Of a stretch of 64,000 bases of DNA, positions 56,564-62,566 are shown piece by piece. Origin of the DNA: Microvirga sp. (lineage in GTDB: Bacteria > Pseudomonadota > Alphaproteobacteria > Rhizobiales > Beijerinckiaceae); assembly GCA_031181145.1 (NCBI GenBank), contig JAPSLB010000014.1, positions 1-64,000 on the forward strand, read 5' to 3'. Within the stretch, counting starts at the first letter, position 1. Each line of letters opens with the position of its first letter. The notes beneath the pieces were generated by a model. That model searched no databases. It was not told the origin of the DNA and saw nothing but the letters and a program-made list of their open reading frames with translations. The translations under genes and the position numbers were made by a program.

Positions 56564-57838
56564 ATGGCCAAAGAAGCACCGACCGGAACCAAGCCTTTCT
56601 CGCTCTTCGAGTGGATGCTCGCCGGGCGCTACCTGCGCACGCGGCGGCGGGAGGGGTTCGTGTCGGTCATCGCAGGGTTTTCGTTCCTGGGCATCATGCT
56701 GGGCGTCGCTACGCTCATCGTGGTGCTCTCGGTCATGAATGGCTTCCGCAAGGAACTGCTCGACAAGATCGTGGGCATCAACGGCCACATCTTCGTGGCG
56801 CCCATCGAGAGCCCGCTCACCGATTATCCCGAGGTCGCCGCGCGCATTGCCGCCGTGCCGGGCGTGAGGCGGGCGATCCCACTCGTGGAGGGCCAAGCCT
56901 TCGGCTCGTCGCAATACAACGGCAGCGGCGTTCTCGTGCGCGGCATCCGCTCGAACGACCTGCGCCAGATCGAGCATGTCGCGGGCAATATCCGTCAGGG
57001 ATCGCTGGACAATTTCGACGAAGGCGAGGGTGTTGCCATCGGCCGCCGCCTGGCCGAGGCCCTGTCGATCCAGGCGGGTGACACGCTGACCCTCATCACG
57101 CCCCGCGGGGCCGCGACGCCCTTCGGCACCGCGCCACGCGTGAAGGGTTATCCCGTCAAGGCGGTGTTCGAAATCGGCATGTCGGAGTTCGACTCCACCT
57201 TCGTCTTCATGCCGCTCACCGAGGCGCAGAACTATTTCAACCGCCAGGGCGACGTGCAGCTCATCGAGGTCTATCTCAATGATGCCGACAGGGTCGATCA
57301 GGCCCGTGCCGCCATCGAGGAGGCGGCCGGCCGGCCGATCCTGATGACCGACTGGCGGCAACGCAACCGCACCTTCTTCGGCGCATTGGAGGTGGAACGA
57401 AACGTGATGTTCCTCATCCTCACGCTGATCGTCCTGGTGGCGGCGCTCAACATCATCTCGGGCCTGATCATGCTGGTGAAGGACAAGTCCAGCGACATCG
57501 CGATCCTGCGCACCATGGGGGCTACGCGCGGCGCGGTGATGCGCATCTTCCTCATCACCGGCGCGTCCATCGGCATCGTCGGCACCCTCGCGGGCTTCGG
57601 GCTCGGGCTGCTGCTCGCTCTCAATGTCGAGCACATCCGCGATTTCATCTCCCGGCTCACGAATACCAATCTGTTCCCGGCAGAGCTCTATTTCCTCAGT
57701 CGCCTGCCGGCCGACGTGAATCCGACCGAGGTCGCGACAATCCTCATCATGGCGATGGTTCTGTCGCTGCTTGCGACCCTCTATCCCTCCTGGCGGGCTG
57801 CGAAGCTCGACCCCGTCGAAGCGCTGCGTTACGGTTGA
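56564..57838 (+). CDS. lolC: lipoprotein-releasing ABC transporter permease
   Basis: LolC/E proteins form with LolD the complex that extracts lipoproteins from the inner membrane for transfer to LolA. The 424-residue protein has an N-terminal span ([24 protein letters not shown]), a large periplasmic domain (about 50-275) and three C-terminal spans with [20 protein letters not shown] single permease gene with lolD suggests a homodimer-type system in place of separate LolC and LolE. It starts 5 bases after proS. Confidence 0.95.
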
Positions 57839-57840
57839 TC

Positions 57841-58536
57841 ATGGCGTCCGGACAAACCCAGCCCGCCCTCCACCTCTCTCAAGTCGAGCGCCGCTATCCC
57901 CAGGGGGACACCTTCCTGGAGGTGTTGCGCGGGGCGGAACTCGCGATCTGGCCGGGAGAGATCGTAGCCCTCATCGCGCCTTCCGGCACCGGCAAGTCCA
58001 CGCTGCTGCACGTTGCGGGCCTTCTGGAGAAGCCCGATGGCGGCGAGGTCTATGTGGGCGGCAAGCCGACCTCGCACATGAACGATAAGGATCGCACGCG
58101 CGTCCGTCGCGAGGAGCTGGGTTTTGTCTATCAGTTCCACCACCTGCTGCCGGAGCTGTCGGCTCTCGAGAACGTGGTGATCCCTCAGCTCATTCGCGGT
58201 CTGCCGAAAGCGGAGGCCGAGAACAGAGCCAACCAGCTCCTGACCTTCCTGGGTCTCGGCAAGCGCCTCAAGCACCGTCCGGGCGAACTCTCGGGCGGTG
58301 AGCAGCAGCGTGTGGCCATCGCCCGCGCAGTCGCCAACGCGCCGCGCCTGCTTCTCGCGGACGAGCCGACCGGGAATCTCGATCCGCATACCTCGGACCG
58401 CGTCTTCCAGACCCTGGTGGCCATCGTGCGCGCCTCGCGCCTCGCGGCACTGATCGCCACACACAATATGGATCTGGCCGCGCGCATGGACCGTCGCGTC
58501 ACCATCCGGGATGGGTTGATCGTCCAGCTGCCCTGA
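57841..58536 (+). CDS. lolD: lipoprotein-releasing ABC transporter ATPase
   Basis: LolD powers lipoprotein release. The 231-residue ATPase has Walker [10 protein letters not shown], signature [15 protein letters not shown], Walker [14 protein letters not shown] and the switch histidine in IATHNMDLA. The ATG at 57841 follows the lolC stop by 2 bases; a TTG at 57835 overlapping lolC is possible but less likely. Confidence 0.96.
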
Positions 58537-58855
58537 ACGCCGCCATGCGATCCCCGGGTCTTCAAGCACCGGGAAGGCAAACCCGACGAGGCGCCACCCA
58601 GTCGCTGCCCATCCCCTCCGCTTGCCTCCAGCCGGGTTGCCCCTTTTTCGTCATGCCCCGCCCGTCCACGCCTTATCCCCCTGTGGTTCAAAGCATGGAT
58701 GGCCGCCACAAGAGCAGCCATGTTTGGCGGTGAGCCTGGGGGTTGCAAGACTTCTTAATCCTCGATTCACCCTGTCTCCACAGCATCTCCCGCATTCACT
58801 TTACAGGGAACGTTCGGCGAACATAAATGAACACATCGAGAACAGGAGATCAGAC
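58537..58855. other. 319-base region between lolD and the small SOS gene
   Basis: The left part (about 58648-58735) resembles a decayed copy of the dispersed repeat (TCATGCCCCGCCCGTCCACGCC). The right part contains ATTCAC at 58765 and 58794 and then the LexA-controlled promoter at 58800-58828. No other gene is supported. Confidence 0.6.
58800..58828 (+). promoter_or_regulatory. SOS promoter with LexA box between -35 and -10
   Basis: TTTACA (58800-58805) is a one-mismatch -35, and CATAAAT (58822-58828) supplies the -10 at a spacing of 16-17 bases. The exact alphaproteobacterial LexA box GAAC-N7-GAAC lies at 58808-58822, filling the spacer so that bound LexA would exclude RNA polymerase. Transcription would begin near 58835, about 20 bases before the small gene. 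Confidence 0.75.
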
Positions 58856-58957
58856 ATGCTTCGCATCATCATCGAAACCGCCGCTGAAATCACCTCTCTC
58901 TTCGTGTTCGGATCGGCCGTGGCAATCTGGGCCCTGGTCCTCGCGCCGGTCGCCTGA
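58856..58957 (+). CDS. 33-residue single-span membrane peptide, probably SOS-induced
   Basis: The product is a short acidic/basic head (MLRIIIETAAE) and one hydrophobic span (about residues 11-31, ITSLFVFGSAVAIWALVLAP). AGGAG lies 7 bases before the ATG, the best ribosome-binding site in this part of the window. A LexA-box promoter stands just upstream. By size, membrane topology and SOS control it resembles SidA, the 29-residue division inhibitor of Caulobacter that acts on the late divisome; that is an inference, as I cannot compare sequences. It is followed by dnaE after 135 bases. It is too short for most gene callers. Confidence 0.7.
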   Translation: MLRIIIETAAEITSLFVFGSAVAIWALVLAPVA

Positions 58958-58965
58958 TACGCGCA

Positions 58966-59008
58966 ATTCACATCTGTCCCCCTTAATTCACAGACAGCGG
59001 GATTCACA
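58966..59008 (+). repeat. three ATTCACA direct repeats upstream of dnaE
   Basis: ATTCACA occurs at 58966-58972, 58986-58992 and 59002-59008, with the shorter ATTCAC also at 58765 and 58794. The spacing is 20 and 16 bases. They resemble neither the LexA box nor an exact DnaA box. They could be regulator half-sites in the dnaE promoter region. Confidence 0.4.
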
Positions 59009-59092
59009 GGAAGCTAGTCCTCACCTGGCCCGCTTAAGGGTTTCCTGCCAAGAATCGTGTCACTATGCGTGCCGTTCGTTGAGTAGAGTTTC

Positions 59093-62000
59093 ATGGCGCG
59101 CATTCTCCAGGATATCGGCTTCGTCCATCTGCACGTACACTCCTCGTATTCGCTGCTCGAGGGGGCACTCAAGGTCGCCCAGCTGGCGAAGCTGGCGAGC
59201 GCCGACAAGCAGCCGGCGCTGGCGCTCACGGACACCAACAATCTCTTCGGCGCGCTCGAATTCTCCGAAAAGATGGCCGGGTCCGGCATTCAGCCTATCG
59301 CGGGCGTTCAGCTTTCGGTCTGCTTCGAGGAGCCGGACCCGGTTGCCCGCGTGGTGCCGCAGCCCGCCAGTATCGTGCTGCTGGCGCAGACGGAGGAGGG
59401 CTACCGCAACCTCATGCGGCTCGTGAGTCACGCCTATTTCGGCGTGCCGCTCGGGGAATCCCCGCGCGTCGCCGCGCCCAGTCTCGCAAGCCACAGCGAG
59501 GGGCTCATCGCGCTGACCGGCGGATTTGCCGGACCGCTCGATTCCGCTTTGCGCAACGGCGGGCGGCAGGAACTCGCGCAGGCGCGTCTCGACATGCTGA
59601 AGAACGCTTTCGGGCATCAGCTCTATGTGGAGATCCAGCGTCACGGCCTCGACGAGGAACGGATGGTGGAGAGCGAGCTGATCGCGCTCGCCGACCGCAA
59701 CGGCCTGCCCATCGTGGCCGCCAACGAGCCGTTCTTCTCCTCGCCGAAGGACTACGAGGCGCATGATGCGCTCCTCGCCATCGCAGAGGGCCAGATCGTC
59801 TCCAACGACAATCGCCGCCGCCTGTCGCCCGAGCATTATTTCAAGACGCGTCAGCAGATGATGGAGCTGTTCGCCGATCTGCCGGATGCGCTCAACGCCA
59901 CCGTAGAAATCGCGATGCGCTGCTCGACGCGGGTGCGGACCCGCAAGCCCATCCTGCCGAATTTCGGCACGGGCGCCGATGCCGCAGCGCTCGATGAAGG
60001 GGAGGAACTGCAGCGGCAGGCCGAGGAAGGGCTTGCACGACGCCTGGCCGCGCATGGCCCCGCGCCTGGCCTTACGGAGCAGGATTATCACGATCGTCTC
60101 GCCTTCGAGATCGGCATCATCCGCAACATGAAGTTTCCCGGCTACTTCCTGATCGTGTCGGACTTCATCAAGTGGGCGAAGCAGCACGACATTCCGGTCG
60201 GTCCGGGCCGTGGCTCGGGCGCCGGTTCGCTCGTGGCCTACGCGCTCACGATCACCGACCTCGATCCGCTTCGCTTCAGCCTGCTCTTCGAGCGCTTCCT
60301 CAATCCGGAACGCGTCTCGATGCCGGACTTCGATATCGACTTCTGCGTGGAAGGCCGCGAGCGCGTGATCGAATACGTGCAGAATCGCTATGGCGAGGAG
60401 CAGGTCGCGCAGATCATCACCTTCGGTACTCTGCTTGCGCGCGGCGTCATGCGCGACGTCGGCCGCGTTCTCGAAATGCCTTATGGCCAGGTGGACAAGC
60501 TCACCAAGCTCGTGCCGCAGAACCCGGCTAATCCCGTGACCCTGGCCCAGGCCATCGACGGCGAGCCGAAGCTGCAGGCTGCCATCGAGGAAGAGCCCGT
60601 CGTCAAGCGCATGCTCGACATCGCGCAGAAGCTCGAAGGCCTGCATCGCCACGCATCGACGCACGCGGCAGGGGTCGTGATCGGTGACCGTCCTCTCCAG
60701 GAACTGGTGCCGCTCTACCGAGACCCGAAAACCGGAATGCGCGTGACCCAGTTCAACATGAAGTGGGTCGAGCAGGCGGGTCTCGTGAAGTTCGACTTCC
60801 TCGGTCTGAAGACGCTCACCGTCCTGCGTACGGCTGTCGATCTCATCAAACGCAGGAACATCCACATCGATCTGTCGGCATTGCCGCTCGATGATCGCAA
60901 GACCTACGAGATGCTCCGGCGCGGCGAGACGGTCGGCGTGTTCCAGGTGGAATCGGCGGGCATGCGAAAAGCGCTCGTGGAGATGGAGACCGACCGCTTC
61001 GAGGACATCATCGCCCTCGTGGCGCTCTACCGTCCTGGCCCGATGGCGAACATCCCGGTCTATTGCGCCCGCAAGCTCGGCAAGGACGAACACAACAAGA
61101 AGGACTGGTATCCGCACGACAAGCTGGAGCCGATCCTGCGCGAGACCTTCGGGATCATCGTCTACCAGGAGCAGGTGATGGAGGTCGCGAAGGTCCTCGC
61201 GGGCTACTCACTCGGGGACGCCGACCTTCTGCGCCGCGCCATGGGTAAGAAGATCAAGGCCGAGATGGACGCACAGCGCGAGCGCTTCGTGTCCGGCGCG
61301 GCCAAGGGCGGGCTCGAGAAGGCGAAAGCCAACGAGATCTTCGACCTGCTCGCCAAGTTCGCGGATTACGGCTTCAACAAGAGTCATGCCGCGGCTTATG
61401 CGCTCGTCGCGTTCCAGACAGCCTATCTCAAGGCGAATTTCCCGGTCGAGTTCCTGGCTGCGTCCATGACGCTCGATCTCGACAACACCGACAAGCTCTC
61501 GGAATTCCGGCGCGAGGCGCAGCGCCTCGGCTTCAAAGTGATTCCGCCATCCATCAATCGCTCGGGCGTGGTGTTCGACGTGGTCTACGACGAGGAGGGC
61601 AAGGGCTCCATCCTCTACGCGCTCGCGGCCGTGAAGGGCGTTGGCCGCCAGGCCATCGAGGCGGTGGTGGAGGCAAGGGGCGACGAGCCGTTCAAGGATC
61701 TCGCCGACTTCGCGCGCCGCATCAATCCGAAGGCGCTCAACAAGCGCACCCTCGAGAACCTCATCGCCGCGGGCGCCTTCGACGAGTTGGAGCCGGACCG
61801 GGCCAAGGCCTGCGCCTCCATTGACGCGATGATGAGTCTTGCCCAGCAATCCTACGAGGCTGCGAATGGCGGCATGATCGATATGTTCGGTGGCATGGCC
61901 TCGGCGGATGTGCAGCTCCGCATCCCGTCCTATGAGCCCTGGCCCGCTGCCGAGCGTCTGCAGCGGGAATACGACGCCGTCGGCTTCTTCCTCTCGGGCC

Positions 62001-62566
62001 ATCCGCTCGACGAATATGGCGATCTCCTGCAGAAGCTCCGGGTGCAGACCTGGGCGGATTTCTGCCGCTCGGTGAAGGCCGGCAACTCGGTCGGCAAGGT
62101 CGCCGCCACCGTCCTCGACCGGCAGGAGCGCCGCACCAAGACCGGCAACAAGATGGGGATCCTGACCCTCTCGGATCAGACCGGGCAGTTCGAGGCTATC
62201 ATCTTTTCCGAGGGGCTCGCGCGCCTGCGCGACGTGCTGGAGCCCGGCACGGCCGTCGTCCTGATGCTCCAGGCGGGCGTCGAGGGCGAGGAGGTGAGGG
62301 CGCGCATCGGTATGGCGGAGCCCCTTGAGGAGGCTATTGCCAAGCACCAGAAGGGCATGCGGATTTTCCTCCGCGACGAGCGCCCCATCTCCAGCGTCTA
62401 TGAGCGTCTGAGGGTGAAAGGCGAGGGCGAGGTCTCTCTGGTCCTGATCCTCGACGACGGCGACCGGGAAGTGGAAGTGAAGCTCCCTGGCAAGTACATG
62501 GCCACTCCCCAGATCGCAGGCGCTCTCCGTGCCGTGCCCGGGGTGGTGGATGTGCACATGAACTAA
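59093..62566 (+). CDS. dnaE: DNA polymerase III subunit alpha
   Basis: DnaE is the replicative DNA polymerase. The 1157-residue protein has the N-terminal PHP domain (FVHLHVHSSYSLLEGAL), the C-family polymerase core with GPGRGSGAGSLVAYAL and the catalytic aspartates of MPDFDIDF (about residues 404-411), the helix-hairpin-helix region, and a C-terminal OB-fold. Length and the PHP motif fit DnaE1, not the mutagenic DnaE2 (about 1050-1080 residues). A small SOS gene lies 135 bases upstream. Confidence 0.97.
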   Translation: MARILQDIGFVHLHVHSSYSLLEGALKVAQLAKLASADKQPALALTDTNNLFGALEFSEKMAGSGIQPIAGVQLSVCFEEPDPVARVVPQPASIVLLAQTEEGYRNLMRLVSHAYFGVPLGESPRVAAPSLASHSEGLIALTGGFAGPLDSALRNGGRQELAQARLDMLKNAFGHQLYVEIQRHGLDEERMVESELIALADRNGLPIVAANEPFFSSPKDYEAHDALLAIAEGQIVSNDNRRRLSPEHYFKTRQQMMELFADLPDALNATVEIAMRCSTRVRTRKPILPNFGTGADAAALDEGEELQRQAEEGLARRLAAHGPAPGLTEQDYHDRLAFEIGIIRNMKFPGYFLIVSDFIKWAKQHDIPVGPGRGSGAGSLVAYALTITDLDPLRFSLLFERFLNPERVSMPDFDIDFCVEGRERVIEYVQNRYGEEQVAQIITFGTLLARGVMRDVGRVLEMPYGQVDKLTKLVPQNPANPVTLAQAIDGEPKLQAAIEEEPVVKRMLDIAQKLEGLHRHASTHAAGVVIGDRPLQELVPLYRDPKTGMRVTQFNMKWVEQAGLVKFDFLGLKTLTVLRTAVDLIKRRNIHIDLSALPLDDRKTYEMLRRGETVGVFQVESAGMRKALVEMETDRFEDIIALVALYRPGPMANIPVYCARKLGKDEHNKKDWYPHDKLEPILRETFGIIVYQEQVMEVAKVLAGYSLGDADLLRRAMGKKIKAEMDAQRERFVSGAAKGGLEKAKANEIFDLLAKFADYGFNKSHAAAYALVAFQTAYLKANFPVEFLAASMTLDLDNTDKLSEFRREAQRLGFKVIPPSINRSGVVFDVVYDEEGKGSILYALAAVKGVGRQAIEAVVEARGDEPFKDLADFARRINPKALNKRTLENLIAAGAFDELEPDRAKACASIDAMMSLAQQSYEAANGGMIDMFGGMASADVQLRIPSYEPWPAAERLQREYDAVGFFLSGHPLDEYGDLLQKLRVQTWADFCRSVKAGNSVGKVAATVLDRQERRTKTGNKMGILTLSDQTGQFEAIIFSEGLARLRDVLEPGTAVVLMLQAGVEGEEVRARIGMAEPLEEAIAKHQKGMRIFLRDERPISSVYERLRVKGEGEVSLVLILDDGDREVEVKLPGKYMATPQIAGALRAVPGVVDVHMN

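Follow-up and report, generated by a model that had tools for sequence, protein, structure and literature searches.

The 64,000-nucleotide stretch of Microvirga sp. DNA analysed here (the window) carries, between lolD and dnaE, a 33-codon gene that probably encodes a SidA-like SOS division inhibitor, repressed by LexA and acting on FtsW. The product has 33 residues with one hydrophobic stretch in the hydropathy plot, and a single-span membrane peptide is predicted. The gene follows two LexA-type boxes in tandem, and frame, boxes and neighbourhood are kept in other Microvirga genomes. The features of the locus are:

57835..58536, plus strand: open reading frame of lolD, a lipoprotein-release ABC ATPase, upstream neighbour of the peptide gene
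58800..58805, plus strand: TTTACA, -35-like hexamer, invariant in the aligned Microvirga upstream regions
58808..58822, plus strand: LexA-type box 1, GAACGTTCGGCGAAC, exact GAACN7GAAC, inside the promoter spacer
58822..58828, plus strand: CATAAAT, -10-like element, partly conserved in Microvirga
58829..58843, plus strand: LexA-type box 2, GAACACATCGAGAAC, exact GAACN7GAAC, directly after the -10-like element
58844..58848, plus strand: Shine-Dalgarno AGGAG, 7 nt 5' of the ATG, its GGAG mostly kept in Microvirga
58856..58957, plus strand: peptide gene, 33 codons, ATG at 58856-58858 and TGA at 58955-58957, product MLRIIIETAAEITSLFVFGSAVAIWALVLAPVA
59093..62566, plus strand: open reading frame of dnaE (DNA polymerase III alpha), starting 135 nt 3' of the peptide gene

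The peptide gene and its control region in Microvirga

The upstream neighbour is presumably lolD, judged by its ABC motifs, and the downstream neighbour is taken to be dnaE from its PHP/DnaE sequence. LolD protein matches were obtained at 26 of 30 loci (L001-L030), and DnaE protein matches at all 30 of these loci and at 36 of the 37 loci L069-L105. The interval between the stop codon of the peptide gene and dnaE holds three ATTCACA(G) repeats (58966-58972, 58986-58993 and 59002-59009); the last of them lies in a stretch that is fairly well conserved across Microvirga and may be a dnaE control element.

An earlier note on this DNA had described TTTACA, a GAAC-N7-GAAC box, CATAAAT, AGGAG, a gap of 7 nt, the ATG and the 33-codon frame. 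All these elements are present, including the exact box at 58808-58822, but the note missed the second exact box at 58829-58843. The two boxes stand in tandem with a start-to-start distance of 21 nt, and TTTACA is spaced 16 nt from CATAAAT and 17 nt from ATAAAT. A scan with the sigma-70 consensus called no promoter at TTTACA/CATAAAT; hence, conservation is what speaks for a promoter here. Across the 37 Microvirga upstream regions that were aligned, that of the window among them, TTTACA and the two halves of box 1 are invariant, as is the second half of box 2, whose first half varies. Outside the window, 36 Microvirga loci are linked to dnaE; all of them have an exact box 1, and in 34 box 2 is exact as well. 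A single GAACN7GAAC is not rare, with three in the window where 1.51 are expected and 145 on both strands of the genome vs 100 for the reversed control pattern. The tandem double box occurs once in the window vs 0.01 expected, even with two mismatches allowed. As the tandem boxes are conserved across Microvirga, we judge the element to be real rather than a product of chance.

GAACN7GAAC is the other strand of GTTCN7GTTC, which is described as the SOS box of Caulobacter (PMC9578287). Boxes of this type precede further genes in the same genome. The lexA gene, on the contig of the window and outside the window, has one about 60 nt 5' of its frame. Each of two recA 5' ends is preceded by one, at about 60-90 nt from the first plausible start codon, and another lies 25 nt ahead of the start of a TIGR03916 DNA-repair radical SAM gene. 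The two recA 5' ends (L398, G000:C18; L399, G000:C40) differ from each other and are both truncated at the same point by a contig edge; two recA genes may be present in this genome. Another LexA-type box (L119, G000:C2:23870-23884) lies at the very start of a 322-residue frame that has no NCBIfam match and may be one more SOS gene.

Relatives of the peptide are encoded at 37 named loci, all of them in Microvirga, and DnaE adjoins the peptide at 36 of these. The frame was recovered in 35 of the 36 other genomes of the genus at E 1 or better; the one genome with no frame at this level (G025) is an assembly of 780 contigs that is 92% complete. The match in another genome (G006) is weak (E 5.6e-4), and its locus holds a divergent 33-residue version together with both boxes. 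Over 36 Microvirga sequences, the window's own frame not among them, there are 630 pairs; the 473 that have pS under 0.6 average a dN/dS of about 0.17, and the summed pN/pS is 0.24 over all 630. Judged by this dN/dS, the 33-codon frame is a protein gene under purifying selection in the genus. The earlier note had named absence of the frame or the box from relatives as evidence against its reading. Frame, box and dnaE linkage are instead kept through Microvirga, and the conserved small frame with the same box beside dnaE also recurs across Alphaproteobacteria, as set out below. A second copy of most of the peptide coding stretch is seen on the second scaffold of Microvirga lupini Lut6 (L037) and in L102 at 2501-2587; it has neither a box, nor the usual start region, nor a DnaE match, and is probably a displaced fragment.

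Occurrence of box and peptide upstream of dnaE across the class

A profile of the Microvirga peptides alone (A1) matched 57 of 397 genomes of the order at E 0.1 or better. Among the best 29 other A1 loci, an exact box precedes the match in 23 and DnaE adjoins in 24, and the rest are mostly chance matches. Over the class, a second profile (A2) gave matches in 13 of 385, which was too few, and the survey was therefore anchored on dnaE instead. The N-terminus of DnaE was located in 178 of the 192 class genomes, in 57 of 60 genomes of a Caulobacter-type family (f115, see below) and in 90 of 91 genomes of the order, and the upstream regions were read for 110 of the 178, 50 of the 57 and all 90, respectively. 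The 110 class genomes are not a random sample, as they consist of the 30 best DnaE scores and 80 from the next rows, some skipped; three of them belong to the family of the window and were counted with the order, leaving 107 from other orders. A locus was counted if it has a hydrophobic frame of 25-50 codons that closes 5' of dnaE and, 18-75 nt ahead of this frame, a box; these cut-offs were fixed after looking at examples.

By this measure, box, peptide and dnaE occur together in 44 of the order's 90 genomes, that of the window counted among them, in 16 of the 107 from other orders and in 26 of the 50 from f115. Eight scrambled half-sites, run under the same criterion, each gave 0/90 and 0/107, and 0 to 3 of 50 in f115. 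An exact box anywhere within 700 nt is present in 48/90, 22/107 and 31/50, respectively, and scrambled half-sites reach at most 2/90, 4/107 and 3/50 at this distance. In the other orders the exact-box counts exceed those of box plus peptide, and thus some boxes there stand without a peptide. The first six scrambled boxes gave 0/110 in the class; in f115, ACAG gave 3/50 and AACG 5/50, and the AACG control was dropped because this one-base shift of GAAC overlaps with true GAACG boxes. One genome of the order (G133, locus L332) has box and peptide, though it was scored as a miss in the order counts.

The survey was repeated with a Hyphomicrobiales profile of 42 box-selected peptides, none of them from Microvirga, from which one alternative frame of G080 had been removed by hand before building. 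At a threshold of 10 bits, picked after the decoy scores had been seen, profile members lie 5' of dnaE in 13 of 107 genomes from other orders, in 40 of 50 in f115 and in 51 of 90 of the order, the last figure being circular because those peptides trained the profile. An exact box precedes 83 of the 104 profile members and a box with at most one mismatch 102 of them; the control CAAG is exact at none of the 104 and has one mismatch at 21. The f115 frames had not been picked for the profile; among the 40 members there, the box is exact in 26 and has one mismatch in 14, and CAAG is found exactly at none of these 40 and with one mismatch at seven. In the surveyed members, an exact box begins 25-84 nt 5' of the start codon, and dnaE follows mostly after about 20-130 nt, with a full spread of about 19 to 590 nt. 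No profile member was found at the locus in 39 of 90 genomes of the order, among them G133, which does have one, and in 10 of 50 f115 genomes by the same criteria, at least two of which (G824 and G833) have a boxed, low-scoring peptide. In G131, an exact tandem double box lies on the strand opposite to dnaE (L352, 632-667, minus strand), and about 220 nt beyond it on the minus strand is a member-like frame, MVRDVAALGALTAFATMLAVVVGGA; the unit of box and peptide may be inverted in this genome.

Relationship of the peptide to SidA

We chose family f115 for its CtrA, which at 88% is nearer than any other in the class sample to a query sequence that we take to be CtrA of C. crescentus. In one genome of this family (G844), CtrA is 100% identical to the query, and in the other four genomes under the same genus handle it is identical at 98% in two and at 89-90% in two. 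Crescentin (PF19220) had been tried as a marker for Caulobacter and failed, since the only genome over the cut-off among the 192 class genomes is that of the window, and CtrA was used in its place. The PF19220 match in question, to a crescentin-type rod protein, lies outside the window (G000:C63:6535-7608) and is strong, with 329 bits at a cut-off of 100.

The peptide upstream of dnaE in G844 has 29 residues and scores 70.8 bits with the NCBIfam model NF033228 (div_inhib_SidA, cut-off 35), and the corresponding peptide in G831 scores 59.7 bits. Within an alignment of 41 peptides, 16 of them from f115 (A3), 17 match NF033228 at E up to 10, with G113 from the order (13.2 bits) and G824 from f115 (17.4 bits) under the cut-off. 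In C. crescentus, sidA is given as CCNA_02004 (PMC11034885), CCNA_02005 is described as a nucleoside hydrolase (PMC3667746), and dnaE is CC1926 in the older numbering (PMC1839093); no paper giving CCNA_02003 as dnaE was found in the open-access literature. The gene beyond sidA in G844 is a nucleoside hydrolase (PF01156), and in G854, under the same genus handle, no nucleoside hydrolase was seen by eye among the upstream frames. Based on the locus numbering and the nucleoside hydrolase neighbour in G844, SidA very likely occupies the locus upstream of dnaE in Caulobacter.

The Hyphomicrobiales profile, applied to 25 f115 peptides, gives a mean of 22.5 bits vs 3.7 bits for shuffles that keep the two parts of a peptide apart, and 23 of these 25 peptides as well as 12 of 15 from other orders score above the 95th percentile of their shuffles. 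The window peptide itself scores 18.8 bits with this profile, a value reached by none of 1000 shuffles. The decoy set comprised 286 hydrophobic frames, drawn in part from the reverse strand and in part from other loci in the genome of the window; a first decoy set had been dropped, as it contained true members without an exact box. Five of the 286 reach the score of the window peptide, all of them nested starts of the one member-like frame opposite dnaE in G131, and the remaining decoys score at or below 5.2 bits. Furthermore, when ten f115 sequences are compared by hhalign with thirteen from Hyphomicrobiales, three of the latter from Microvirga, the result is 94.8% and E 5.5e-8 over 26 columns. 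Read in the reverse direction, only 19 of the 42 Hyphomicrobiales peptides score with the f115 profile above the 95th percentile of shuffles. With that profile the window peptide scores 1.8 bits (reached by 350 of 1000 shuffles), with a profile of the other orders 6.6 bits (158 of 1000), and with NF033228 it gives no match at E up to 10 and stays below the 35 bits set as curated cut-off. A conserved core, made up of an acidic residue followed by A-phi, and the phenylalanine, spans the half that is shared with SidA, and the C-terminal half of the window peptide (FGSAVAIWALVLAPVA) differs from that of SidA.

The homology of the window peptide to SidA would be transitive, running via intermediates, and is backed by synteny and shared control. 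Because the window peptide scores nothing with NF033228 and the link passes only through intermediates, the label SidA-like appears appropriate, and not membership of NF033228. Still, the comparison with SidA drawn in the earlier note proves to be more than an analogy, since the Caulobacter-type peptide at the same locus is SidA by NF033228 and the profiles of the two groups align.

Proposed function, alternatives and known systems

SidA is described as an inner-membrane protein of 29 residues with FtsW and FtsN as interaction partners, and it has been proposed to keep FtsW/I/N inactive (PMC4211646); for its contact face, TM7 has been suggested (PMC13396833). Cells without lexA are reported to filament because of sidA (PMC12700426). 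By analogy, the Microvirga peptide would block the synthesis of septal wall, with FtsW as its proposed target; binding of LexA to the boxes, induction and the orientation in the membrane are likewise proposed. The SOS-induced, SidA-like job proposed for this gene beforehand has gained a conserved frame, box and dnaE linkage and an alignment between the profiles of the two groups, whereas induction and division inhibition are what we infer.

In undamaged cells, LexA would occupy the two tandem boxes that overlap the promoter and keep the gene off. With box 1 between the two promoter elements and box 2 right after the -10-like one, LexA on both boxes would block RNA polymerase. Upon DNA damage, RecA would trigger self-cleavage of LexA, and a short mRNA would be made with its ribosome site at once available. 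The 33-residue peptide would then enter the inner membrane by its one helix, with the charged N-terminus inside, and hold the septal-wall complex of FtsW, FtsI and FtsN inactive, and the cells would elongate until repair is done and LexA is back. The 104 profile members carry 1.43 positive and 1.22 negative charges per peptide in the first 12 positions and 0.23 and 0.41, respectively, after position 12, a cluster that would fit a helix with its N-terminus inside.

The same distribution of charge bears on the idea of an SOS toxic peptide like TisB or DinQ, which would depolarise the inner membrane and bring about dormancy with no specific block of the divisome. TisB and DinQ are described as small inner-membrane peptides of E. 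coli that are SOS-induced, as expected here. However, charges confined mostly to the first 12 positions in the 104 members are unlike an amphipathic pore, and the locus is common to SidA, a division inhibitor. Moreover, TisB and DinQ are described as having processed mRNAs and an antisense RNA, whereas the ribosome site here directly follows box 2 and thus leaves little room for a long structured leader. We consider a peptide of this kind unlikely.

It is quite unlikely that the peptide is SOS-controlled and related to SidA by descent but acts, in Hyphomicrobiales, on something else in the membrane, such as the machinery of polar growth or of elongation. The differing C-terminal halves of SidA and the window peptide would allow for this, and growth in Hyphomicrobiales is described as unipolar (PMC9022086), but the conserved core lies across the very half that SidA shares.

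The proximity of dnaE raises another reading, that of a regulatory leader peptide: the boxes would make dnaE inducible by DNA damage, and how much dnaE is expressed would be adjusted by translation of the small frame. dnaE is the next gene, close by in most surveyed members, and the scan called no terminator-like site between the peptide gene and dnaE on the plus strand, so that both could be co-transcribed. The conservation of the amino-acid sequence in the genus (dN/dS as above) nevertheless argues against a leader peptide, as do the wide spread of distances to dnaE and the similarity in sequence of the surveyed members, which are all hydrophobic, although by selection. The Caulobacter gene, in addition, is described as acting as a protein (PMC4211646). 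A leader peptide is therefore very unlikely. Finally, a spurious frame beside a chance GAAC pair can practically be dismissed, for single boxes are common in this genome, but the conserved frame, boxes and synteny contradict chance.

A LexA-repressed, SidA-like division inhibitor thus remains the preferred reading of the window gene. On a wider scale, we lean towards regarding SidA as the best-known tip of an ancestral alphaproteobacterial checkpoint gene that is LexA-controlled and lies beside dnaE across much of the class; its kin might have been overlooked elsewhere because the peptides have about 30 residues and have diverged below ordinary detection. The sequences compared here suggest that this damage checkpoint goes far back in Alphaproteobacteria and is common there. 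The usual description of SOS division inhibitors is that they differ between lineages. If the ancestral reading is true, FtsW-directed peptide arrest of division would be the original SOS checkpoint of Alphaproteobacteria, and the persistence of the gene beside dnaE would hint that the supply of replication polymerase is coupled to the division brake. In the open-access literature, mostly without subscription papers, we found no report of SidA in Hyphomicrobiales, and one elsewhere is possible. A syntenic family from SidA to Microvirga would offer a ready candidate for the DNA-damage checkpoint of Hyphomicrobiales, nitrogen-fixing symbionts and others included, and its alignment of natural variants could be used for locating FtsW contact residues. 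For annotation, it would offer a locus rule, just 5' of dnaE and behind a GAAC box, for genes which similarity searches miss.

Among known systems, TisB and DinQ of E. coli resemble the window peptide in size and inner-membrane type and are themselves described as SOS-induced, but they are described as type I toxins with antisense RNAs, and DinQ as depolarising the membrane. To our knowledge, neither lies beside dnaE. YneA (Bacillus), SosA (Staphylococcus), ChiZ (Mycobacterium) and DivS (Corynebacterium) are longer and lie elsewhere in the genome. By their description as damage-induced membrane division inhibitors, these four are likened to the window peptide; YneA is reported to interact with FtsW, and ChiZ and SosA are predicted at low confidence to bind FtsW (PMC13396833). 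DidA of Caulobacter crescentus is likewise described as a small membrane protein that blocks FtsW/I/N after DNA damage, but differs in being SOS-independent and DriD-induced and in interacting with FtsN (PMC4211646).

The closest counterpart is SidA of Caulobacter crescentus (CCNA_02004). The window peptide is four residues longer, has no NF033228 score and differs in its C-terminal half, and its locus has two tandem boxes and, on the other side, lolD rather than the nucleoside hydrolase seen in G844. Both genes stand beside dnaE with a LexA-type box and encode peptides of about 30 residues with a single predicted span, and the profile comparison points to a core common to both groups.
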